A DNA stretch of 64,000 nucleotides. Source: Filobasidium wieringae. Its lineage: Eukaryota; Basidiomycota; Tremellomycetes; Filobasidiales; Filobasidiaceae. Of this stretch, positions 4,399-51,370 are shown one piece after another (position 1 is the stretch's first letter; every line of letters starts with the position of its first letter). The notes under the pieces are model-generated. The model ran no database searches, was not told the origin of the DNA, and was given only the letters and a program-made list of their open reading frames with translations. The translations under genes were made by a program, and so were the position numbers. The DNA lies in contig BCIV01000005.1 in assembly GCA_001600055.1 (NCBI GenBank), positions 62,001 to 126,000 of the forward strand, in the 5' to 3' direction.

Positions 4399-7300
4399 TC
4401 AATTCAGCCCTACAACTCTCCCCATCGTTACAAAGTCATTCAATGCTGCATACCTCACTCTTCCGCCTCCGTCAGGCATGACGTCGACCCCCTCCCTCCA
4501 AGCCATGACGAGACCTCGAGCTTCAAACGGTGGAACCTTCTCATCCCTCGTCCCGACTGTCACATGCAGAACGTCTGCCAACGATTCGCATAATACCTTC
4601 TCGACCTCCTTCGCAGCCTCTGCTGATCGATCCTGGTCGGATGTATGAGGAGCTGGGCAGGGTCGGAGTCGCTCCACCACGAGAGTCATGACTCGATCGT
4701 TCCATATCAAACCGGTGATCTCGAAATCGAACCGGGTGGGAACAGGAAGCTGACCAAGAGTCTGGCAAGCGTTCCAGATGGATTCTTCTTTTCCTATCGT
4801 CGAGTCGCCTTCCGCTCGGCTCTCCTTCTCCTTAGCCACGCTTGATTCGTGGACGATCGTGATATGCGGTCTCCCCGTCAACCTCCCGTAATCGATCAAT
4901 CGATTCAAGAACGTTTCTCCGTCAGTCCTCGTCTCGTCCCGTTCATCACCGGGCAACCCAGCGAGTGCCGACTGAGAGACCTTGTCCAACTCCACCTCGA
5001 CACTCAGCCCATAATACCTGGCAGGTTTCGATACCTCCCCTTGCAGAGGTTTCTTCAGCTCAGCCTTGTACTTTAGCCCGACTTCCAATGCTTCATCCAA
5101 TTTCTCATCTCCCGGCACATCCCTGCCCAAAGCCCCCCAGATCGCTTTGACCACGCGTCCCAGATTCTCCCTCAACCCGACCATGACGCCCAGCTTGCAT
5201 TCCTCATCAAACACCCCACCTTCAGGGGGTACAAACTCGCTCTGAAACCTCTTCACTATATTCTCATGTCTCTGTTGATCGGTCGGGTCGGGTCGGAGGG
5301 ATTGATGGTTCTCACCCCGTAATGCGATTCGTTCGGAAGCGATACGCAGGGTCTTGTTGGTAGGATGATGATCTACGTCAAAGACAAGGGCGAGTTTGTG
5401 GATGTTGTACCCGCTGAGAGCGGGACTGTTGGACAAGTCGCTTAGTTCCTCATGATGTTGAGGCAGGTGGTTGTTTCTGTAAGCAAGATCGTTCAGTCAC
5501 AGAGGATAAACACAAACGTCCCGAAGATCCGAGCTGACCTATCGGCGAAAACGATATCGCTCGCTTTCAACGCGTCCACAACAGCCTTCAAGAAACCCGG
5601 TCCGGTCTTCTTGGTCTTGACATCGTCGCTTTGAACATGGACCATCTCCCCTCTCAGTAACGCTCTCACCGCCTCTCCGAGGACAGTCTTACCCATCCCG
5701 GGGATGGCCACGGGGACGATCAACAATTTCCTCTTCTCCGTCTTCTCCTTGTAAATCGAATTCTCTCTCGCCCTTTCCCACTCCTCGGCTCCATCCGTTC
5801 GGGTCCAAGCCAAGAACGCTTCCCGCACCCGAACGATCCCGGTATCGTATTTCTCGAACAACCCAGGGTTGGCGATCATCTCCCGTGCGACCCAGTCGGC
5901 ATAACACTTGCTCTCCGGTCTCTTCAATTTACTCCCCAACTTGGTCCACGGTTCCGCATTCCTGTTCGTCCGTCCTTTACAACCGGGACTCGTCAGGGGT
6001 AATAGAGTCCTCGTGATCTCCCTCCATTGACGGTACATCAAATAAGGTTCGTCAAACTTGATCTTGAAGAAGAACGGACTTCCCGGTGGATAAGGGGGTT
6101 CCGATCCATCCTCCTCGACGCCCGGTCTGACCGTGGTCCTCACGACGAACCCCTCAATAGGATCCCCGTTCCATTTCCCCTCCCTAGCCACCTTGTCCGC
6201 GTACGATCTGACCTCCTCGATCGTCTGCAGCGTTTGAGTGGCGGTAGGTATGAAACCCCATTGAAGGGCGAAATCGGCTACTTCTTCCGGAGGAAGGGTT
6301 GAGAAATGCGGAGTGTTATGGTTCAGACCGTGGAGATGTAGACCCGTCAGGTGTTCGGGAGTAGCCAATACATGTTCTTCAAACTCGTCGTCGCATAACT
6401 GATACATTCGAGTGCAGAACCGATCAATACCCCTATTCCCGGAACTCGTTTCCCACAACCCCAAACTCACCTCGAGAACACAACTGACCCCCCTCCCGTG
6501 CAACTCCCTTGCCAAATCCCTCTCCGTCCTCCCCACTCGATCCAGATGAATCCTCAACCATTTCCTGCCCATAGCGGCATGCGGTATCATCGACGTCTTC
6601 GTATTCGAGGCGATCTCCTCCGGTGCACGAGAACCGGGGATAAAAGCCTGAGCGGCCGCCTGTTCTTTCTTTTGCTGGAGGAAGGCCAGTTTTGCGGCTT
6701 TCTTCTGGGCCGATTTGGAGGGTGGTTTTCCTTCGATAGCCCCGGATGTTGGGTCCGAAAGATCTCGAGTGGGTTCTGCCTTGATCTCGAGCTCCTGTAC
6801 TGCTCGTTCGACCTGCTGAACCTTCTCCTCTAAGATCTTCGTCTCCTCGTTCCCCTCGCTCTCAACGTTCTCTCCCTCTTTCCCATCCTCTTCCTCAACC
6901 TGGGGCTTCCATATTTCAGTCCCCAGGCTGTGTTTACTCGCTACCATCAATGTCCCCTCGTCCAGTGCGCTTATGAGGATAAGACATCCGTTTGATTTGT
7001 AAGTGAGGGAATAGGGTGGGGAGGTATGGGTCGTAAGGGATTTCCACTGTTGGATGGGTAGAAGCGAAGCAGCGGACAGGAAGAGGGGGACGTGGGGAAT
7101 GAGGAATGAGATTCAAGGAGAGGTGAACAGAGATGACGGATATCGAAAACGTATCCATCAAGTCAGCATTGAGAATGAAAATCGAAATCGACCGGGACGT
7201 ACAGTAGTATACTCGACCTCGTCCAGGTTGAAAAACTTATCATACCCTCTCCCCACAATCCTCATCTCCTCCTCCTCCTCTGCACCCTCCGCTCCCTCTC

Positions 7301-8525: not shown

Positions 8526-11500
8526 ATGTCCTCGGAAACCTTGATCCCCCCCGTGAACCAGCAGGCTCAGACGAACGGGGAATCTTCGATAAGCAATAAC
8601 CCTTTCCGGAAATCCCTCGATGCCGCTGCGACGCAACAACCTCCATCATCCTCATCCACCTCCAAACCCGCTCAGAGCTCTTCTGTCTCCCCTCTACTCG
8701 CTCAGCTCGGGACGGATCCAAGTACTGGAGTGGAGACGACCCTCTCCCTGTTCGCTTTCACCGCGGAGAACGAGGACGAATTGACTTTCCCTGCCAACGA
8801 GCTCATCGTCATTGTCGAAAAGGATCACGAGTACAACGATGGTTGGTTTAGAGGAAGGAACGCCAAGGGGGAAGAAGGCTTGTTTCCTGCAAGTTACGTC
8901 TTACCCAGCGGGGCCGACCCTAAACCTTATCTCGAGATGCAACAAGCACCTCAACCCTTGAACATCGGAGGGCCCGATAAAGCTCTCGATCAACCGGCTC
9001 AAAAGGGATTAGGAATCATCTCCTCCGGAACCTCGGACAGGGTGGAAGAACCCAGACCTAGCTCTCCGACGAAATCGCTGGCGAGGACCGGCTCTAGATC
9101 TTCCCTCGTGACGACTCGGGAACAAGCCGCTAGGGGGGAAATCCAAGGTCCCCACTCGGCCGCTAGCGAACTCGTCAGTCCGGCCGAAAGGGCTGCAGCT
9201 TCCATGGAGCCTGAACAAGAAGCGCTCAGGATCCCGGAACCAGTATCGGATAAGATTCTGGGCGGGCGTGAGACTCTGGGCGGCCGTGATTCTACGGAAG
9301 ATCCGGATAGGACGATCACGGGGCTCGAACGTCAGAGGACTATCGATACGGATAAGGATGCGTCTAGTGTTGGACATCAGGATGATGAACAGGAACCGGG
9401 TAATAATAATATCAGGGCCAGGTTGGCGGAACAGGCTAGATTAGAGAATGAGAAGCTGGAAGCGGAGAAGGCGGATGAGGAGGACACGGATGGGGAACGC
9501 AAGAGAGTCACAAGCGACGCTTCGGCTACCCTTGGATCTCGACCTGTATCCAGTTCCAACCGGAATTACAGCTACACGTCTAATGGAGGGAAACCGAATG
9601 GCAATCAGAGGGTTTCTGGGGTCAGGATGTCTGGGGTTCCTCATGGACTGGTTTACTCTGATGAGAGCGATTCGGAAGAGGAAGGAAGTGTCGTTGGCGG
9701 ACTAGGCAGTCCGAAACGAGGAGCGGGGAGACGTTTGGGGTGGGAGGAAGAGGAGGAGGCTGCCACCAGGGATTTCAGCTTTGGTCGGTTCGGAGCAATG
9801 TCGGGAAGTAGCAAGCCTGAGGAAAACGTTACGAGACGGCAATCGGAGGGACAGAACCGGCTCGAGCAGATCGACGAGAGCCGATCGCTCGCTCCTTCTA
9901 TACAGGATGATGGAGGGTTGACCGCGAGTAATCCGAGAGACGGTGATCTTACCCCTCAGCCTTCCCGAAGTCGGCTTCAAGAGCCGGTTATCCCCAGTCC
10001 TCCTGTCGTTCAGGAAAAATCATACGCTGCTCCGGCACCTATCAGCCCTGTCGTACCAGTCGTCCCCGTAGCTCCCGTCGCACCCGTCGTACCTGAACCC
10101 GTCGTCAAGGAAGATGCCTACTTCCCGCCTGTCGAAAACACTCCCAAGCTGCGACAACCTGCCTTTCTCAGTCCGCCAGAGGAAGAATCCCCAATGGGCA
10201 CACCTGCTGCTCCTCGAGCTGTTTCTCAGACTACCGCCCCTGTGGTTACGAGTCCACCGCCTGTACAACCGGTGCTCAAGGAGAGCGCAGTTGTGTCTTC
10301 CCCACCTGTTGCACCTGTCGTCGCTCCCGTTCCTGTAACACAGCCGACATTGCATAGGAACGTTTCTGATGATAATGGGTTCGGTTCTGGTAGGGCGACA
10401 CCTAAGGATATACCCAGGCAATCTGAATCGTGGGCAAACGTGGCGGGTAACCCTCATGGGNGGGGNGTGACCGAGGTCATTGAGTGGGCCAGGAAACGGG
10501 GCTTTGACGATGCCGTTTGCGAGAAGTTTGCTGGTCAGTCTTACTCGACGGGTCAGGTTGTCATTAGGTGGTGCTAATTAGTATTCGTTTTGACAGAACA
10601 CGAGATTACCGGAGATATCTTGCTTGATTTAGATGCGAACCTTCTCAAGGAGCTCGATATTCCCCAGTTCGGCAAGCGGGTCAAGATCGCTAACGCTATC
10701 GCTGAACTCCGTCGTCCTCAATCCACGTTGTCGGTCGGTAACGCTTCGGTGAGGTCGTCACAGTTTGGAGGCGCACAAGGTCATGCTCGGGGCCCATCGA
10801 TGGGTACTTTGGGAACGGGTTATGGTTCGCCTGCCGTTTCTCCTTCACCGTACCCTGCATCTCCTACCTATGGCTACGAGAATGGTCCAAGGAGCGCTGG
10901 TGGAGCTGGCGTACAACCTGTGATTCACGAGGACGAAGCGCTCCAATCGGATGAACTGCGTACTCCACCTGAGCAAGTCGAACCTGTCGTCTCGAACGCA
11001 CAGAGCCGTCCCCAGTCACAGAGCCAACCTCCCCGCAGTGCCAGTGGCACGCCTAGCTCGACAAACTACGCTGAATGGGCTCACTCTAGAAAGTCCAGTG
11101 TCGCTGGAAGTCTGGCTACCGCGCCCATCATCGAGGAAGATGAGAGCGGTAAGAGAAGGACTGGACCTCCTTCCGTCCATCAAAGCTTCACTCCCGATGC
11201 TCCCACTCAGAGCATGTTGCCTCCAGGCGCTCGTGAAGGGACAGGTTCGATCCGTAGTATCGATTCTAGTATTCCTCCTTCTCCACAGACACCCAACACC
11301 AAACGTAGTTCCACCGAGCAGCGTGTGTTTGGTCACAAGAAGGCCAAGAGCAGCATGGATGGTTCTCGACCTCCGAGCGAAAGGATGAGCTTCTTCGGAG
11401 GCACCATTGGGCGAAACCGAAAACCCGCTCCTCGATACCCATCGTAAGTGAATTTGGTTCGTTCAAACCGATTAGCCCTGATTTTTACTTTGATTACGAT

Positions 11501-13075
11501 ATAGCAACGCGTCTACTGCTGCATTCGCGGTCGAAGACCAAGCCCCGGCGACGAATGGTCCTGACCGTCAGCGAAGCTTGAGTCGGCTGGTCGGTGGCGG
11601 TGGTGGTAACCGGTTGACGAAATCTTCTGTCGGACCCGCTTCAGCGCCCATCACTAATAACCAGCGTATCTATGTGGGCAATCCTGTTTCCGCAACGGCC
11701 CCTACCACCCCTCAACGAGGCGGCAATGCAGTTGCATCTCCGCCTGGCGAAGGTTCTGCTATTTCGAAGATCGGCAAGCCCGATTATGCGGGTTACATGA
11801 AGAAGAAGGGAGAACGATACAACACCTGGAAGAACCGGTACTTCGTGTTGAAGGGGTCTCACCTTTATTACATGAAGAGTCCTCAGGAGGACAAGGCGAA
11901 GGGTCATATCGATTTGACCGGGTACAAAGTCTTGTCTGATCCCAATGCTGGTTCAGGATTCGGATTCCAGATCGTTCATGATCGAGAAAAGACCCATTAC
12001 TTTGCTAGTAATGACGAAAAGGTCATTAAAGGTTGGATGAAGAACCTGATGAAAGCGACTATCAGCCGAGATTACTCTGGTAAGCACCAGTGGTTCGCAT
12101 GTATTTGTCGCATCGCTGAATTCTTGTTCCTCCAGCTCCTGTGGTCTCCTCCTGTAATATACCTACCATCCCACTTAGAGAGGCTCAGATGATGGCACCT
12201 CGACCGCCTTCTCCCGGAGAGCGAGATGCAGCTCAGAGGGCTGCCAGGCGAGATGATCCTAACAAGTTGACTCCACGGGATGCTAGCGTCTTGGTACGTT
12301 TGTGCTAGATCGGATCGGAATATCGGTATACTGATACGTTCCGACTCTCCGAATAGATGTCGCTTGAAAATTCGCCTACCTCACCTAAGAGGAACACCGC
12401 GCAACAGAACTTGGGCCGAGGTTCCGTAAGGCCCTCTTCCTCGATGCTAGTCGCGCCTGGTCGGCCAAGTCGAGATATGCGTAGACCAAGTGATCGTCAA
12501 GGAAGTGTGAGTACCAGAGACACACCCTGACTTGCCTTGTTTGATATTGATCTTTTCGCCAATTGTAGACCGCTAGTTTCTACCCTCAAAGCGACGGGCC
12601 TGAGACCCCAAGAGGACCTATTGCAGGTGGAGTTCAGAACCCTTTGGCGACCCCCTTACCTATACATCCTGAGACTCGGCGAGAACTCGTTGGTACCAAC
12701 AACGCCAGCAACAATTCCTATGGTCAGGATGGCGACCTTTTGGCTTGGATCAACGCCCGGCTGCCACGTCACGTTTACGACCGAGCAGACTCGCTCGCGG
12801 CTTCATTCCGTGATGGGAAGATCGTGACTCGTCTCATAGAGACGTATTGCAACCCCGAATCCCCTTCGGCTGTTCCAGCAGACGAGTCTATCTTCCAGCC
12901 GGTTGCACTTGGAGAGCCGAATCTGGAAGGGTTGTTTACGATGATGGACAAGTGTATTGATGAAGGGGTCGACACCGTCGGGTCCAGCATCAACGATATC
13001 CGATTGGGACACGAGGAAGAAACAAGGAAGCTGTTGACTAGTCTCCGGGGATGGATCGAGAACAGGGAGGCATGA
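8526..13075 (+). CDS. Boi/Pob1-type polarity scaffold (SH3-SAM-PH, CH-like tail)
   Basis: Boi/Pob1 proteins act at sites of polarised growth with Cdc42, formins and the exocyst. Six exons are supported: 8526-10533, 10597-11443, 11505-12079, 12136-12293, 12357-12506 and 12569-13075. In order the protein has an SH3 domain near residues 75-135 (LSLFAFTAENEDELTF, GWFRGRNAKGEEGLFPASYV), a long disordered Pro/Ser-rich stretch, a SAM domain split by intron 1 (VTEVIEWARKRGFDD, then LLDLDANLLKELDI), and a PH domain (YAGYMKKKGERYNTWKNRYF, IKGWMKNLMKAT). The end, beginning DGDLLAWINARLP, resembles a calponin-homology fold. Two N bases (10461, 10466) fall at the SAM start; whatever they are, the second codon is Gly, and TGG (Trp) is likely for the first. 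ATG 8526 is the first in-frame ATG. The SH3-SAM-PH order defines the family; the tail is my inference. Confidence 0.88.
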
Positions 13076-13633: not shown

Positions 13634-16600
13634 ATGCAGAGTCTTGGGCAAGATGGAAACATGCCTGTAGCTGTGGAAAATGCCGGTCACGGCAACAATA
13701 AGGAGCCTCTTATCCCAGCATCGAAACAAGAGGAAGATGTCGCAATGGAGGATGGAGACACTGAGATGGATGGGCGACCACTCCTGCCGTGGGCATTTAT
13801 CAACTGCGAGATAGATGATCTCGTGGTGCTTGTCGGTATGTTGACTTCGTTCTAGTTGTCGAGGTCGTGATGCTTACTTCGGGATTCATCAGCTCACATG
13901 CTAAACAAACTTATGGAACATAACGATCAAGTCGTTCTGACACCCTCATCTCTCACTCGATTTCATTCCCGAGCACCTCCCGGAATAAGCGTGCTAGACT
14001 ACCTCAAAAGAATCGTCAAATATACCAACCTCGAAGTGAGTTCTGTTTGACATTCCGACGGTCTATGAGAATATGCGACTGACCGCTGCATCGTAGAAAT
14101 TACCACTATTATCTCTCCTAGCATATATAGACATAACATGCTCCAACCTCCCATCGTTCACCCTGTCGTCTCTGACTGTCCATCGGTTCGTCATTTCCGG
14201 GATCACCGCAGGCTCAAAAGCATTGTGCGACGTATTCTGCACGAACGTGCATTATGCTAAAGTCGGCGGAATCAAGGTAGGGGAACTCAACGCATTGGAG
14301 AGGGAGTTTCTTAGGGTAACAGATTGGGATTTATGCGTACGTTTGAGTTTTGTGAACGCTCATTTGGTTGAACAAGACACTGACTTTCTTCCTGATAATC
14401 GTCAGGTCCCCGCTGAATTGATCCAGCAGTATTATTCCTCGCTTATTCGGTCACATGGAGGATATCGGCAGTCCCCCAAACCTTCTCAATCCCCATTCAC
14501 TACCTTCCCACTAGAAGGAGATGGTAACGAGAAGAAAGTAGAGGAAGAAACGCAGATGGAAGATGGGGAACAGGCAATACCAGAGAAAGGAGATACAGAT
14601 CCAGTAAAACAAATTGAAGTGGAAGAGGGAAGAACCGGGATGAACGAGACGGCAGTACAAGCGAGGCTTGCACCGGTCTTGAAGGGTGAGTGGAGTCCTT
14701 TTCTAGCAGCGATTGAGCTTGCGCTCATCGCAACGGATTCAGGGGATACGACTGGCATGATACCGGAGAAAAGGAATGCCTTGATATCCGCTCTACTGCA
14801 AGATATGGATGATGGGGAGGGCGATAAAGTGGGGTTCTACACAGTCTGGTCCCACCAAAGTGAGTGAATCGGGGCTTCATGACATCGCTCAGGTCGTCTA
14901 ATATCTCTGCTATCATTCGAACAGCACTATCATTGGTCATGGAAACACTAAAGACTCTATCCAGAAGCGCGACCGGGACGGACTTGCTGACAAGTCTCGA
15001 CTCATTGAGGATCCTGTTCAAACAGGCTAGGATACTGCCAACACAGGCTACGACCACAGATTACGACATGGACAAGACCTCTAGTTCCGAGACTCGGGAG
15101 ATACGGCCTGATAACAAGGTTGAGAAGGAGGCTCTTTCGACGATAGCAAATACCATATTCCTGCATCAAACGTCGACCCTGCGATCGCTTCGAGAGCTGA
15201 ACGCGGGGCATCTGATTGTAGAGAGGATAAAAGTAGATCAGCGGAGTAGGAGGGATGGCGAAGGGCTCGGATCCAAGGGAAACACGACAGAACCTCTCGA
15301 CGAGATGATGATGTTCCTGCTGGGAAGGCTGTTGATGTGGATGACCGCGTCCAAGGAATCTGGGTTCTTGGAGACGTTGGTGGAGAAAGACGATTTAGTG
15401 GAGGTCCTGAAGATCGTGAGTGTGCGTGCGGTTGAGTTGACATGCATCTCATAGACGGTTGACAATGCCACAGGAACTATCGAGACCATATGTACCATCA
15501 AGCAAGATGGCGTTCGAAGAGATGTTGAAAACCACATTCCATGCGCTGGCTGTGTATCCCTCTGGCGACGAGTCACGGTGGGAACACCTTTTCAGCAGGT
15601 ATGCCGATACCGATTTCTCTGTTGTTGAGGGCATTCGCTGATATCCTCAAGGTATAGCCTACTGACACCGCTATTGAAGCTATTCGAGACGATACCTGGC
15701 GATACCCTCACTCCGCCACTCACCCATATCATCAACTGCCTGACGCGATTCCCCTTTACCGAATCCCTCTCTCCGAAATGGCTTGAATTCCCTGACAACC
15801 TATCGAGACTACTGAACATCGTGAACGGCCATCTCGATCGAGTTTTGCCGGCATCACCTTGGGAGCCTGGTGAACCCATCCCTCGTAATCACGTAGGCGA
15901 GCAGAGAAAGGAGTTGGAAAGACTTGATGAAGTCCTCACGCCCAGTATGCTTTTATTGGCGAGGTTGACGAAGGATAATGACGTGATGCGTCAGGAGGTC
16001 AAGCGGATCATCTTACCTCATGACCTGTAAGTCGGTTTCAAGCCGGGTTCCTTATCGCTTCCTGTCTCATATTCATACGATCTGTTTTTTTTTTCGGCAG
16101 CGATCGATCACCGGGCTCGATGCCTTTGGAAAAACGACGGACGTTGTTGGGTCATTTGATCCGGTTCTTGAAAGCCCCTAATTACCTGCACCTATCCACC
16201 TCGATCGGGGAGACGCTTTGGAACGTCTGTGATCAGGATGGTTAGTCTTCGAGCACGAGATTGTAGTGATTTCGGGAACCGCTAACTGACCTTCACGTCA
16301 TATGTCTTAGCGGGGAAACTATCGAATGAGATCGGGTATGGGAACGCTGCAGGGCTGTTGTTCAGTAAAGGTATCACCGGACCTTCCCAATCGAGTTCCT
16401 CTTCCGGACCGAGTGGGAGTGGGAGTGGGGGTGCAACGATCGAAGAGATCCCCGACCCCGAGCCAGTCTTTGACACTCGTCACCCAATAACCGCACTCGA
16501 TCGAGCCTCATCGTCCTCCCCCATGACCCCGGAATTACCGGAAATGACCCCCCTGGAAAAGGAAAGGGAGGCCGATCGACTGATGCATCTCTTCTCGCGG

Positions 16601-16792
16601 ATGGATCGGAACCCTGCGCTCCGGATGATGGAGAACCCTATGCGGGGGATGGTCGATTCCGGTCGGATGGAGGGGTGGGAGCGGGAAGAGGGGGAGAGGG
16701 AGCGGAGGAGGTTGGAGGAGGAGGAAAGAAGGGATGAGGAGGAAGGGATGAGGGAGTTGGGGGAGTGGAAGAAGAGGAAGAAGAGGGGGTAG
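13634..16792 (+). CDS. Pho80-type cyclin continuous with Ric8 (apparent fusion)
   Basis: The predicted exons are 13634-13835, 13893-14035, 14097-14336, 14406-14859, 14925-15415, 15474-15598, 15658-16026, 16101-16240 and 16311-16792. The first four encode a Pho80/Pcl-type cyclin box (TVHRFVISGITAGSKALCD, VHYAKVGGIKVGELNALERE, TDWDLC then VPAELIQQYYSSLI), normally the partner of a Pho85-type CDK. The same open frame then crosses an acidic linker of about 70 residues and enters a complete Ric8/synembryn beginning MNETAVQARLAPVLKGEWS. No stop codon separates the two. Either this is a true fusion, or a separate RIC8 transcript starts at the internal ATG 14640 while the cyclin message ends by an unseen splice or polyadenylation. 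Domain identities are firm; single-protein status is uncertain. Confidence 0.65.
14640..16792 (+). CDS. RIC8: Ric8/synembryn, G-alpha exchange factor and chaperone (alternative start)
   Basis: Ric8 promotes nucleotide exchange on, and folding of, heterotrimeric G-alpha subunits. This entry gives the separate-gene reading of the second half of the preceding model. From ATG 14640 the protein aligns by eye from its start with animal Ric8: an N-terminal helix (FLAAIELALIATDSG), LKTLSRSATGTDLLTSLDSL, the central repeats, LDEVLTPSMLLLARLTKDND, and the conserved GYGNAAGLLFSKG block. It ends with MTPLEKEREADRLMHLFSRM and a very charged Glu/Arg tail. Because the N-terminus is complete from this Met, an independent start is possible. 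There is, however, no intergenic gap: the promoter would lie inside cyclin coding sequence. Introns at 14860-14924, 15416-15473, 15599-15657, 16027-16100 and 16241-16310 restore the family frame. Confidence 0.7.
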
Positions 16793-16823
16793 AAGGAACG
16801 TGGCGGGTGGGGGGGGGGACTGN

Positions 16824-16846
16824 GTGACGTGACGTGACGTGACGTG
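16824..16846. repeat. TGACG pentanucleotide tandem repeat
   Basis: About four and a half copies of GTGAC stand in tandem just after the RIC8 stop, next to an unresolved N (16823) in a G-rich run. TGACGTG resembles bZIP/UPRE half-sites, but this is the 3' side of both flanking genes, so a promoter role is unlikely. Confidence 0.7.
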
Positions 16847-16970
16847 TATCGATGCTGAGAGTGGAACATGTTTGTATATCTAGGTCATGCTACAAGGTCA
16901 TGATCGAAACCGCAAGAATCAAGAACCGTCCCACTCTTCCCTTCCGGTAATCCCCCACCTCCCAGGTTCC

Positions 16971-17528
16971 TTAGCATCCATCCAAGATCGACCATAACCC
17001 AACAACCCCACCCATCCCAACCAACCCAGCCCGAACGTAATTCAACCTCTCGAACAGGATCAATAACGCTACGATCTCCTCGGTATCCGAACGCATCACC
17101 TCCTTCTCATCCCCGTCGTGCTCCCTCGATTTCGCAAGCTTTTTCCTCTTCTCGTCCAACCCGATCAACCGGCCATTACAAACCCTGACCATGACCCCCG
17201 TCATAGGTCCGATTCCCAAACACCCGAGCGCGGCGAGCACGAACCCCGTGCGTCTCTCGGGGTGAAGATGGGCTAGGTAAGCCCAGCCTGCGGCCGCACA
17301 GGTGGCTACCTGGGGAATAAAGTGGCTGCCGTTGGAGAAGATCGAGCGGAGGTGGGCCAGAGAGATGGATGGTCGGGAGCGATCGGAGGCGGAGGAGGAG
17401 GGCTGGGGACGGGCGAGGGAGATGAGAATCGGGACGGGGTAGAATGAGATGGAGAAGATCAGGGTGGATAGGGGGAGGGTTAGGAGAGGTGGGATCAGGT
17501 TGGTCAGTTGGGTTGAGAGGGGGGACAT
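16971..17528 (-). CDS. Small DUF1772/anthrone-oxygenase-like membrane protein
   Basis: The product is an intronless 185-residue protein. Hydrophobic segments are visible near residues 12-38 (PPLLTLPLSTLIFSISFYPV), 75-90 (CAAAGWAYLAHL), 96-115 (FVLAALGCLGIGPMTGVM) and at the C-terminus (AGLVGMGGVVGLWSIL). The layout fits the DUF1772 family, some of whose members are anthrone oxygenases or tautomerase partners in polyketide pathways: a Ser/Pro-rich first loop, a Pro-Met-Thr turn after the third segment, then an Asn-Gly-Arg-Leu-Ile stretch and a charged loop. No polyketide genes lie nearby, so no pathway is assigned. ATG 17528 is the only in-frame start that includes the first membrane segment. 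Confidence 0.6.
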   Translation of the reverse strand: MSPLSTQLTNLIPPLLTLPLSTLIFSISFYPVPILISLARPQPSSSASDRSRPSISLAHLRSIFSNGSHFIPQVATCAAAGWAYLAHLHPERRTGFVLAALGCLGIGPMTGVMVRVCNGRLIGLDEKRKKLAKSREHDGDEKEVMRSDTEEIVALLILFERLNYVRAGLVGMGGVVGLWSILDGC

Positions 17529-18336
17529 GGGGCCGAGTTGTAGGTGTGGGATCGTTCGGTCTGTATCGTTTGTGTGTGGGAGGTTTGGGTTTACGGTCTG
17601 AACAGGAAGATCCCAAGCGATTCAAAGTTCAGACGCGCGCGATCGGCGCCCAGTCATTTTATACGTTTCATCGCTGGTCACGGGCGGAGATAACGGCGGA
17701 CGTTCGACACCAACAGCTCTATCGGGAGCGTGATCGAGCGAAACGTTATCCCCTTTTTTGGGGGACGTCGTTTTCTTCACCTACCCTGCGGTTCTCAATG
17801 ATCTCAGGCTCGGATTCGGGCCACATGCTAGAGAAGAGACTACTCTACTTGCACCCTGTCGACCCATATTATTATTGGAGCGAGGTGAGCGACGAGGCGT
17901 GACTCTGCGCAGCAAAAGACGACGGATCCGAATACGTTTGAGAGCGATCGGATTACCCCGAGCGTTGGGTGGACGCGTGGGAAAGCGGTGTTGCAGTTCG
18001 AGCAGGTGGTGGGTCTAGTCGTTGAGGGTTGTAGGTGTGTTGGGTGGTTGACTATGGCCTGGAGTGGTTGTATGTGAGAGTGTGAGGATGATATGTGGTA
18101 GTCGAGATGAAGATTGGTAGGGGTGACCTTGCCCCGTTACGCCGTGTGGCCCTGTGAACGCAATGGATGAGGTATATCATTCTCCGTATCATTTGTATCC
18201 GCGCGCGTCCGAGTTGATGATTCAACCTGGTTTCTTATAAGAACGAGCGATGATTAGACTCGAATCTCGTTCTCCACCACATCGTCACAGCCAACAACGA
18301 CACCGACACCACCTTGACCTCCATCGACCTACCACG
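17529..18336. other. Divergent intergenic region, DUF1772 gene and bZIP gene
   Basis: This 0.8 kb lies between divergent genes and should carry both promoters. It is rich in CGCG and CGAT. The open frames crossing it start inside the minus-strand gene and have no recognisable product. I see no RNA gene. Confidence 0.4.
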
Positions 18337-46457: not shown

Positions 46458-49400
46458 TCAAGCCTTTCGGTTCCTCCATGCGAATGCCGCAATTGTGAAT
46501 CCCCAAAATGCGAAGACTAGCGAATGAGGGCAAGATCAGCTGATGCTTTCGGTCTTGAGAGGAAAGAATGTAAGCTCACCCCAAATGGCAGTGATACCGA
46601 TGTTCCTCCATCCAATGACGCCGGAAGTGATGTCCAATGTGCTCAAGTACTCGTTACCGTTTCGGTAAGCTGTCAGTCAGCAAGTTCATCAGTATGCATG
46701 ACAACAAAAGTCTATATGGAGACCGAAACACTCACGACAATAGGCACAGTCCGCGGTAGCATCCGGGTTGTTGACGTACCCTGCCGCACTTGACAAGAAG
46801 TCGTTGAGATATGCACCGCACGTCTGGCCAGCGTTCGGCTGGACGATGTTGAACTCGCTCTCATCGCATGTGATGTTGACGTTCCAATTGATGAAGAAGA
46901 CCTTTCCTCCCAAGATGTAGGACCATGGGTCGAGGTAGTAGATCCAATATCTCCACCAGGCGGGGATTTGAGGGTAAGGTAACAAGATACCCGCAAATGA
47001 GGCCATGAGACCGAGAGGCACAGAGTTGAGTAATGCGGCTGCCTCTGCGGTTGGACAGAGAACTCCGATGAACTGAGCGAATCCTCCAATCCACAGGAAA
47101 TAGAGCATGTCGAGGAAAACGAACGATCCGGCGTGGTATGGGTCGGTGAGGATACCGACCTTGAAGGTGACCAAGTACCAAGAAACCCAACTCAGGATCT
47201 GGGACATCAAAAGCCAAGGGATCTCGGTGACGATCAAAGCGAACACCCAGGGGAACCACCCGAACAGTTTTGCTGATGACTCTCGCGATTCGAAAAGTGT
47301 ACGTTGTTCGATGACCTGAAGTCGTAGGGAGGCAACTGGATGTCAGCTAAAGCGCGTGGAAACGCCAAGGGGAAAGGCAAATGAACTAACCCTCGGTTGA
47401 ATGATGTTGAACAATCCTGGTGCGACGAACATGGCTTGGAAAGTAGCCAACAATCGGTTCTGAACACTTCGGTAGTTGTTGTCCATTTGCAAGAACGAAA
47501 GACCAGTGATCAGACCGGAACCGACAACGAGACCGACTCGACCCATGACGTAATCAGGGGTCCTGACGATAGACGACCAAGATCTTTGGGTGACCAATTT
47601 CATCTGTCTTCCGAGCGGAGCGGCGTAATAGAGACCATCTTCTTCGAAAGAAGGAGGCTTGCTCTTGGCCTCTTCGTTGACGGCTTGAACCTGTTTGGTG
47701 ACCTCCTGGTACTCCTCAGAGTCGAGCCAGACTTGAGCCCAATCGTGACCTTTTGACCTGACTCCACTGACGATATCGATCATTTCTTCAGCAGCGTTGG
47801 CTTCATCGTCGATCTTGGCTCCGTTCTTCGCAAAGTACTCCTTCATCGTGCTAGCGTGTTTACCGAGTTCACCATTATAGACGGTTCGTCCACCCTTGGC
47901 GAGCAAGATGAGCTGATCGAACTGTTCAAAGAGCAAGGCGGAAGGCTGGTGCACGGTGACCAACATGGACTGTCCGGCAGCACTGAGCTTTTTGAGGAAA
48001 CGAAGGATTTGGAAAGCACTCTGTCCGTCCAATCCACTGGTAGGTTCATCCAGGAAGAGCAACTTGGGACGAGCGACTAGTTCAACTCCGATCGTAGTCC
48101 TCTTCCTCTGTTCGATACTGAGTCCGGCTCCGGGAATACCAATAACAGCGTTGGCCAAGTCCTCAAGTTCGAGGACGCTGATGACCTTGTCGACGTAGGC
48201 AACGATTTCCTCGTCGGGAGTGTCGGCAGGCTGACGGAGTCTAGCCGAGAACAAGAAGGCTTCACGGATAGTCTGAGTAGGTTCGTGAATGTCCATCTGA
48301 CCGACATAACCACAAGTACGCTGGAAAGAAGGACCGGGGGGACGACCGTCGACAAGGATTTCACCTTCAATGACACCGTCTTCCTTTCGGGCACCCAATA
48401 CGTCTAAAAGAGTGGTCTTTCCGGCTCCGGACGCACCCATCAGGGCGACCAACGAACCTGGCTTTGTGAATCCTTGAATGTTGTCGAGCAATTTACGGTG
48501 ACCACCTCGAACGGGAACGGTATAGTTGAGTCCGGACCAAGAGAAGAGGGTCTCGGTCTTGTCGATCTTCATGTCCTCGTTGTCCTGACGGGGTCCAGCG
48601 GCATCGTTACCCGCGCCAGCCTTTTCACCGGCCTCGGCATCCTTGTGCTCAGCCATAGGGTTGGGCTCGTTCTTGGCAGGTCTTCGGAAGAGCAAGACGG
48701 ACTTGACGCTTCCGGCGGCCTTGAGACGTTCGACGGCGAAACAAGTGACGATGACGTAGGCGATCCACCAAACGATGACGATCCCAAAGTTTCTCCAGAG
48801 GTGATCGGTTCGGTAACCGTACTGTGACTGAATGTAAGCCGTTCCTCCGACGCTGGTATCACCGGTAGTAGCTCCGGGGGTGACACAGGTGACTCCCTGA
48901 CCGGAAGTCGGGTAGTTTGCGCCGTAAGGAATCAAGCTGGGGGTGACACAAGGAACGGTAGTCCCCTGGAACTCGTTGATAAAGGCGGATTCCAAGGAAT
49001 AGTACAGAGGGTTGAGCCACCTGACCCAACCGATCCAAGGTTTGAACTGATTCGAGGGGATCAAGTAACCCATGGTGACGATCAAGAGACCCAACGAGAG
49101 ACCGGAGACGGCACCTGACGCTTGGAACGAGGAGAACCCGAAACCGACCATCCGGAAGAACCCGAGCAAGGCGTGAGTGGTGACATAGGTCAAGACCCAG
49201 AGGGTAAAGAAGGCACCGGCGGTATGACGTAAAGCGGACATCCAGTAGATGGGCAAGATGAAGACGGTGACTTGACAAGCGACGATGGGGAGATCGACCA
49301 TGATCTGAGCCAAGATGAGGGCACTGGGACGGTAAAGCGCCATACTCTTGTGTTTCGCCAAGATCGTCCTTCCCTTGAAAGAATTGACGACCTCTCCGAG

Positions 49401-51370
49401 ACCGAGTAGAGCGTTGACGAGTAGGATCAAGAACAGGACACCGGCCTTTCCAAACAGACCGGTGGTATCACCCGACAACATGTAGAACAACGAACCCAAG
49501 ATCAACGACTGAATGAGACAACCTCCCTGTTTGATCGCCAACGAGGCCTTGTCGTTCCAAGTCAAGGCGTACTGTCTCCTCGTAGCGCTCAACACCTGAG
49601 TCCACAGGGTGGTGGTATAAGGACTCTTCTTCCCGGACCCCTTTGCCTTTTCGATCCTAACGTTTTCCTGGAAATCTTCCGTCCTGACCCGTCGAGTCTC
49701 CTCGTCCCTGATCAGAGCGTCGTACTCCTCCATCATTCGACGACTGAGATCACTCTCCCTGAACGCCCTCGCGAATTCCTCGGGGGTATCGGGGACTTGT
49801 CCCTTTTTATCATCCGCGACGACTCGTTCGGTAGCGACGGTGACGGCGGTCAAATAGTCCGACAAGTTTGCTCCGGGGGAAACGACGAACCCCAAGTTTT
49901 CGAAATAAGGTCGAGCCTCTTTCATCGGACCCCAATAGATACATCGGCCCGCGGCGATGACGAGGATCTTGTCGAAACATTCCGTGATCTGATTCCCGGC
50001 CTGGTAGACCGAGATGAAACAAGCCGTCTTGGTGTAATCCGTGATGGTCCTCATGGAGCGGGTAAACTCTAGAGCGGTGGAGGCGTCCAATCCTCGAGTG
50101 GGTTGATCGAAAGCGATCACCGGTGCTCGATTGACGAGAGCTTCGGCGAGTGTGACTCGCTGTGACGTGCAAACGATCCGATCAGTCCCCACGCCCATGG
50201 TCGAGACACTGTGAGCGACTAACCTTCCTCTCTCCTCCCGAAACACCTCGGACGTTCTCATTCCCGACCTTGGTATCGACGGTATGCTCAATCCCAAAAG
50301 TCTTTAGCAAAGTCTGCCTATGATCCTCCTCATACTCTTCCCTACTGACCCCATCCGGTCTGGCTTCGTCCGAAGGGGTCCTCATCTTCAGAGCAAACTT
50401 GATGGTCTGATTGACAGTGAGATCGGGGTAGAAGACTTCGTCCTCCGCTACAAAGATGATTTGCCCGGGGTAGGATTCGGCCGCTTTGGAATCCATCGTT
50501 CCGTAGAGGATCTCTCCGTCGACACCTGCGTATCCTTGTTTGATGTTTGTCAGTGCCTGGACGAGGGAGGAGCCGTCAAGTCAGTGCGGGTCGGATCGGT
50601 AACAAAGAGAACCTCGGACTGACCTTCATGAACGTCGTACACCCCGCTCCAGGTCGACCCAAGACCAAAGCCATCTCCCCACTCTTCAAACAACCCGTGA
50701 AATCCTGGATCAAGAACTTTTCATTCTTTCCCAACTTGCTATCGAGATCGGGAAGATGGTTCGCCTGGGTAGACTTTTCCGAAGCCTGAGGAGCGGTTTT
50801 ACCAGAGGTGACCGAGGAAGTCAAGGTGGAACGTTTCTTGTCGTTTCGCTTGGTCATGGGGTTGAACATGGTCCCCAAGTCTTCGGCGAAGACGGCATCC
50901 GCTCCCACACCTCTTACGCAGAGTTGGTTCCATGAGACGTCTAGACGACGAGGTTTCAGTCCGTCCCTCTCGTCCCTCTCCTGATCACGTTTCATCACGC
51001 TCTCGAGGGTCCAGGCGTCCTTCTTGGAAGCTTCCGACCGACGGGAGACGGCTCGGTCAAAGGAAGAGACCTCGTCGGGGTAATCGTCTCGAGCTTGCGA
51101 TCGGGCGGAAGTCATTCGAGTGAGGATTCCACCGATGGCCGACTGTTGTCTCCCGTTCGCTGGTCGTTCGTCCAGTTCCCTGGTGTATTGAGGAACGGCA
51201 TGAGACTTGTTGGCGGTCTTGGGGTCGGCGGCGGTGCTGGGGGAAGAAGGGAAAGCGTCTTCCTCCTCGTCAGCGTAGGAAGAGGCTGGGGATGGTTGTT
51301 GAGTGGTCGCATCGAGAGAGGGGGAGTGATCGATGGGGAGAGCGGTGCCGAGGGTGATGGGCGCTGCCAT
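46458..51370 (-). CDS. PDR-type (ABCG full-length) multidrug ABC transporter
   Basis: This is a plasma-membrane efflux pump of the fungal PDR family, with (NBD-TMD)x2 topology. It includes Snq2-, Pdr5- and Cryptococcus Afr1-like azole exporters; the substrate here is unknown. The acidic N-terminus (MAAPITLGTALP) leads to NBD1 with the typical degenerate Walker A GRPGAGCTTFMK, signature NVRGVSGGERK and IAFDQPTRGLDASTALEF. TMD1 has six segments (ILGSLFYMLSG to FGIVIVWWIAYVIVTCF). NBD2 has the canonical Walker A GASGAGKTTLLDVLG, the PDR-type signature LSIEQRKRTTIGVELV and LLFLDEPTSGLDG. TMD2 follows (WFPWVFALIVTEIPWLL, FAGILLPYPQIPAWWRYWIY) and the last exons end in FTIAAFAWRNRKA. There are few introns, near 50600-50535, 50230-50160 and 47390-47290, plus two near 46.5-46.75 kb. 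ATG 51370 is chosen because a basic intergenic-like stretch lies upstream. Confidence 0.93.

Follow-up and report, generated by a model that had tools for sequence, protein, structure and literature searches.

A Pho80-type cyclin reading in one frame into a complete Ric8 points to a PHO80-RIC8 gene fusion in Filobasidium wieringae

Introduction

Pho80 is a cyclin governing the phosphate response, whereas Ric8 folds G-protein alpha subunits and activates them. In Cryptococcus, Pho80 works with Pho85 and Pho81 (PMC10127591), and Ric8 acts with Gpa1/Gpa2 and cAMP (PMC6592070). Regarding the mechanism of Ric8, a study of rat Ric-8A identifies Y412, A415, A416 and L418 as residues contacting G-alpha, and indicates that phosphorylation by casein kinase II of the connector that follows the contact helix raises Ric-8A activity (PMC7044438).

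Here, we analyzed a 64,000-nucleotide stretch of the Filobasidium wieringae genome (contig BCIV01000005.1, positions 62,001 to 126,000), hereafter the window, for which a preliminary description had claimed that a Pho80-type cyclin reads in one frame into a complete Ric8. Both halves belong to known families, and the novelty lies in their combination: a literature search, in which subscription journals were thinly covered, found no work pairing Pho80 or Pho85 with Ric8/synembryn, nor any synembryn-cyclin gene fusion.

Results

The locus occupies positions 13634..16792 of the window on the forward strand, where a Pho80-type cyclin, an acidic linker and a complete Ric8 lie in a single frame, from the start ATG at 13634 to the stop codon at 16790-16792, in exons joined by GT-AG introns. 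The claim of a cyclin read in frame into Ric8 was borne out, both by the two Pfam domains and by a second protein of the same organization, P0001. When cut as initially proposed, the gene encodes 881 amino acids (882 including the stop); the model that we prefer, aligned with P0001, has an extra intron, 10 exons and 862 amino acids, the stop lying within the coordinates. Exon 1 (13634..13835) holds the start codon and an acidic N-terminus, cyclin homology starting at residue 48 (base 13775); exons 2 (13893..14035) and 3 (14097..14336) encode the cyclin box, the latter including Asp160 (14229-14231). Exon 4 (14406..14685) comprises the last part of the cyclin homology (through residue 233, ending at 14519), the acidic linker (14520..14681, residues 234-287) and the first Ric8 residues. 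The N-terminal helices of Ric8 follow in exon 5 (14743..14859) and its armadillo/HEAT repeats in exon 6 (14925..15415), and Ric8 continues through exons 7 (15474..15598), 8 (15658..16026) and 9 (16101..16240) to exon 10 (16311..16792), which encodes the C-terminus with the motif GYGNAAGLL (16334-16360), the connector, a charged tail and the stop. The nine introns total 570 bases, and six of them are not multiples of three.

The additional segment, 14686..14742 (57 nt, GTGAGT...CAG), is most likely an intron whose length, divisible by three, preserves the frame, because its 19 residues are absent from P0001 and from the aligned standalone Ric8 proteins; its in-frame codon score of 0.09 decides nothing between intron and exon. 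The stretch 14406-14859 had been described as a single exon holding the end of the cyclin, an acidic linker and the start of Ric8 with no stop; this content was confirmed, with no stop codon in the coding frame against nine and seven in the other two, whereas its unity was not, the stretch being likely split by this intron. Two internal in-frame ATGs lie nearby: Met246 (14556..14558), a possible internal start, faces a gap in P0001, and Met274 (14640..14642), the RIC8 start suggested in the preliminary description, is indeed an in-frame ATG, but P0001 has Lys there. A different internal Met is present in P0001, at position 251.

Coding evidence across the join was considered separately. In simulated sequence of similar composition, a run of 53 codons was free of stops in some 8% of cases and one of 92 codons in some 1.3-1.5%, so that openness alone constitutes moderate evidence. 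Codon usage, referred to 20 further long open frames (unverified as genes) from the same window, gave the linker (residues 220-285) 0.23 bits per codon in frame against -0.13 and -0.09 out of frame, while the 521 bases upstream of the fused gene scored negatively in all three forward frames. This score is a rough one, another frame scoring about equal to the coding one at residues ~441-500 and from 761 onward, and cyclin residues ~81-140 scoring about zero in the coding frame. A chance open frame was rejected as a sufficient cause, given the 8% figure for 53 codons together with the linker codon score and P0001. Residues 234-287 include 15 D/E and 6 K/R, and Ric8 homology starts within the linker, at about residue 264-275. 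Some 30-54 residues, or ~90-160 bases (the lower figure being read by hand from the alignment), separate the Ric8 fold from the last conserved residue of the cyclin, a short distance in which to fit a 3' UTR, a promoter and a 5' UTR. Of the words searched, AATAAA and ATTAAA were absent from all four regions tested, and TGTA was present twice at the end of the fused gene and twice behind the gene upstream of it; positions 14400-14700 contained none of the searched words, TGTA included, which is a weak indication considering the general lack of AATAAA and ATTAAA. The whole window has five ambiguous bases, none of them in 14406-14859. One of them, at 16823, is followed by a short GTGAC repeat directly after the stop of the fused gene (16820-16850).

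The cyclin half matched Cyclin PF08613 over residues 84-194 (104.6 bits, cut-off 21). The best PDB sequence match of the N-terminal half was Pho80 with Pho85, 2pk9/2pmi (E 1.9e-34), which was also the only strong cyclin match, Cyclin-Y coming next at E 0.0055. A Foldseek comparison using the cyclin part alone of the P0001 model (pLDDT 49.2 overall) weakly pointed the same way, 2pmi/2pk9 ranking top at E ~3e-6 with a TM of only 0.42-0.44 and an rmsd of 8-9 A, and Pcl10 reaching E 0.37. The half falls in a group where several proteins bear the name Pho80, and shares 84% identity with the Pho80 of Naganishia albida across 183 residues. These comparisons place it nearer to Pho80 than to the other cyclins of Pho85. 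Asp160 aligns with Pho80 Asp136, which we take to have a role in the contact with Pho85.

The Ric8 half matched PF10165 over residues 333-821 (249.2 bits, cut-off 25.7), covering profile positions 2-447 of 447, and the modeled Ric8 half of P0001 has a predicted fold of the armadillo/HEAT type that matches Ric-8A/B. The motif GYGNAAGLL at residues 711-719 corresponds, as matched via motif spacing, to the contact motif of Ric-8A; the P0001 version, GYGNVAGLL, replaces one Ala by Val. The effect of casein kinase II on the Ric-8A connector suggests a route by which a tethered CDK could act. CDK-type S/T-P sites were counted in the connectors of the window protein, P0001 and eight standalone Ric8 proteins (10 of the 12 tried, P0034 and P0035 being without the anchor motif), and in none were they enriched relative to shuffled sequences at p<0.1, the lowest value being 0.106, for P0001.

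P0001 is a protein of 835 amino acids, from an independent Logan contig, with the order cyclin, linker, Ric8, both domains being confirmed by a Pfam rescan; the same domain order in a relative, proposed as a check of the initial claim, was thereby found. It is 58% identical to the window protein over 96% of the query, with marked differences between segments: 171 of 185 aligned residues in the cyclin (92%), 16 of 48 in the linker (33%), 234 of 432 in Ric8 (54%) and 64 of 119 in the tail (54%). In the alignment, the nine intron positions of the window gene are all free of intron-derived insertions in P0001, whose contig of 2789 bases has 281 bases beyond the coding sequence, compared with 570 intron bases in the window gene. 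For these reasons, the simplest reading of this single contig is that it represents a spliced mRNA, presumably a cDNA, carrying both domains. Neither of the window ATGs at 14556 and 14640 is conserved in it. It is this independent relative that carries the sequence-based case for a true fusion.

The first protein search, which used the fused protein as its query, yielded 32 sequences, namely P0001 with both domains, 26 with the cyclin only and five with Ric8 only; with two further searches using the Ric8 half, these became 42 distinct proteins (one fused, 26 cyclin-only, 15 Ric8-only). Each protein search scored ~8000 best-word candidates within length limits. No fusion other than P0001 was found among the 42 proteins, and no Naganishia Ric8 was among the proteins that these length-limited searches returned; a scan of viral_contigs with P0001 gave no match. 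All 15 Ric8-only proteins list no second Pfam domain. In a tree of 20 cyclin regions, from which eight of the 27 cyclin-bearing proteins, all from Kwoniella, were left out, the window and P0001 cyclins paired with a support of 94/92, slightly short of the 95/80 threshold set by the tool, and this pair was sister to four Naganishia Pho80s (96/94) within a 100/99 group. Joint cyclin and Ric8 alignments placed Ric8 proteins onto the cyclin and were kept out of folding. Naganishia belongs to the Filobasidiales, Tremellomycetes, and it is quite probable that the fusion is located in a tremellomycete lineage near it. Because the four Naganishia Pho80s list the cyclin domain only (P0002 and P0004 were rescanned), the fusion probably arose after the split from Naganishia. 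The tremellomycete Pho80s returned were 539-845 amino acids long, in a list that could hold no protein under ~485 amino acids owing to the search length limits, and have a long tail where the fused protein has Ric8. Such a tail is not universal, since the C. neoformans PHO80 coding region measures only 809 bp (PMC10127591).

The genome searched comprised 19.76 Mb in 33 contigs, the window being C5:62001-126000. With N. albida Pho80 as the query, the fused locus matched at 90, 78, 73 and 52% by exon, and the next locus, on contig C1, at 50 and 40%. No other Pho80 was found by this loose, exon-by-exon search, which could miss a very divergent copy, and Ric8 matches obtained in the same way fell at the fused locus only. 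PF08613 also matched on contigs C1, C10, C12, C9 and C3, the last four not being raised by the Pho80 query. The best other cyclin, C1:524593, was considered as a second Pho80 and rejected, as it looks Pcl-type by eye. The genome's other strong PF08613 cyclin (L013 1053-2653, forward strand) has a long N-terminal extension and is Pcl-like by eye. As regards possible partners, three G-alpha loci were found (C1, C12 and C24), together with a weak match under the cut-off on C14, and a locus on C8 combining SPX and ankyrin domains is Pho81-like, no GDPD-domain match being found there.

Among the neighbors of the fused gene, 10578-13072 on the forward strand shows SAM and PH domains followed by a calponin-homology match below the cut-off, and may be one Boi-like gene or two genes. 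A convergent gene at 16974-17621 on the reverse strand has an anthrone oxygenase domain (42.8 bits). Elsewhere in the window, also on the reverse strand, 5499-7112 carries tRNA ligase domains (RNA ligase and tRNA ligase kinase) and 47349-50303 an ABC transporter of the PDR/CDR type.

Discussion

This work leads us to propose, with good confidence in the explanation as a whole, that a fusion of PHO80 with RIC8 has produced a single gene, giving one mRNA and one polypeptide with both halves working. The product, which is very probably a single fused chain of ~862 amino acids, would begin with a Pho80 cyclin and continue through a short, acidic and flexible linker into a full-length Ric8. The two halves likely keep their roles, because their key motifs are kept (Asp160 and GYGNAAGLL): the cyclin would still bind Pho85, under the control of Pho81, and Ric8 would still chaperone and activate G-alpha. 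In such a molecule, Pho80 and Ric8 would be made at a fixed 1:1 ratio, every Ric8 could carry a Pho85 kinase, and phosphate or cell-cycle state could thereby modify Ric8 or G-alpha.

Other explanations of the locus were weighed against this fused polypeptide. That an assembly or annotation artefact merged two neighboring genes, for which we found no supporting sign, appears exceedingly improbable, given that P0001, independent and only 58% identical, has the same join, and that no ambiguous base occurs in 14406-14859. We also regard as improbable that a single open frame holds two overlapping genes with separate expression, RIC8 from an internal promoter with translation from ATG 14556 or 14640, and the cyclin as a message cut short either by early polyadenylation or because intron 14860-14924 is retained. 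Such expression would be in line with the internal in-frame ATGs of the window gene and the separate one of P0001 (Met251), with the stop met at 14865-14867 on reading through that intron, and with the distinct pho80 and ric8 deletion strains of C. neoformans (PMC10127591; PMC5959070). On the other hand, P0001 spans both domains without intron sequence and conserves neither window ATG, the linker scores as coding, and the lack of the searched words, including TGTA, in 14400-14700 adds a weak argument. The ATGs at 14556/14640, or retention of intron 14860-14924, could nonetheless yield separate RIC8-only and cyclin-only isoforms.

A more serious competitor concerns the meaning of the join rather than its existence. 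One polypeptide may be made, the halves of which work as before or are cleaved after translation, as a neutral fusion retained because neither gene is dispensable and the linker does no harm. We give this about an even chance, in a probability that overlaps with that of the preferred explanation, of which it is the sub-case without regulatory coupling. The fast evolution of the linker (33% identity, vs. 92% in the cyclin and 54% in Ric8), its low confidence in structure models and the lack of enrichment in S/T-P sites all favor it. By contrast, the fusion is older than the divergence of two lineages that now share only 54% identity in their Ric8 halves, a persistence that argues against a purely neutral join. 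That the fusion couples the phosphate CDK to G-alpha signaling is, for its part, doubtful, and coupling by phosphorylation stays speculation because neither fused protein has S/T-P sites in the connector beyond the level of chance. We consider a passive tether at least as likely as regulatory coupling.

From a functional point of view, gene fusions often mark cooperating proteins. The occurrence of the sole detected Pho80 and the sole detected Ric8 as one molecule would predict a physical link between the phosphate CDK and heterotrimeric G-proteins, which may exist unfused in other fungi and which the fusion makes directly testable. The fused protein might tentatively be viewed as a single-chain device in which the Pho80 half, controlled by Pho81, recruits Pho85 and so keeps it on the chaperone and GEF of G-alpha. 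If so, phosphate status would set the amount of active G-alpha, hence the cAMP or mating signal, and Ric8 occupancy could shift the kinase between nucleus, cytosol and membrane.

Compared with described systems, the fused protein has a cyclin half that best matches Pho80 (2pk9/2pmi), and carries Ric8 in place of the long tail of the tremellomycete Pho80s returned. It differs from Ric8/synembryn (PF10165; PDB 6n85, 6nmg, 8el7) in that a cyclin precedes Ric8 in the same polypeptide. The same two families operate in Cryptococcus, where PHO80 and RIC8 are two genes, each of which was deleted singly (PMC10127591; PMC5959070), whereas here they form a single frame.
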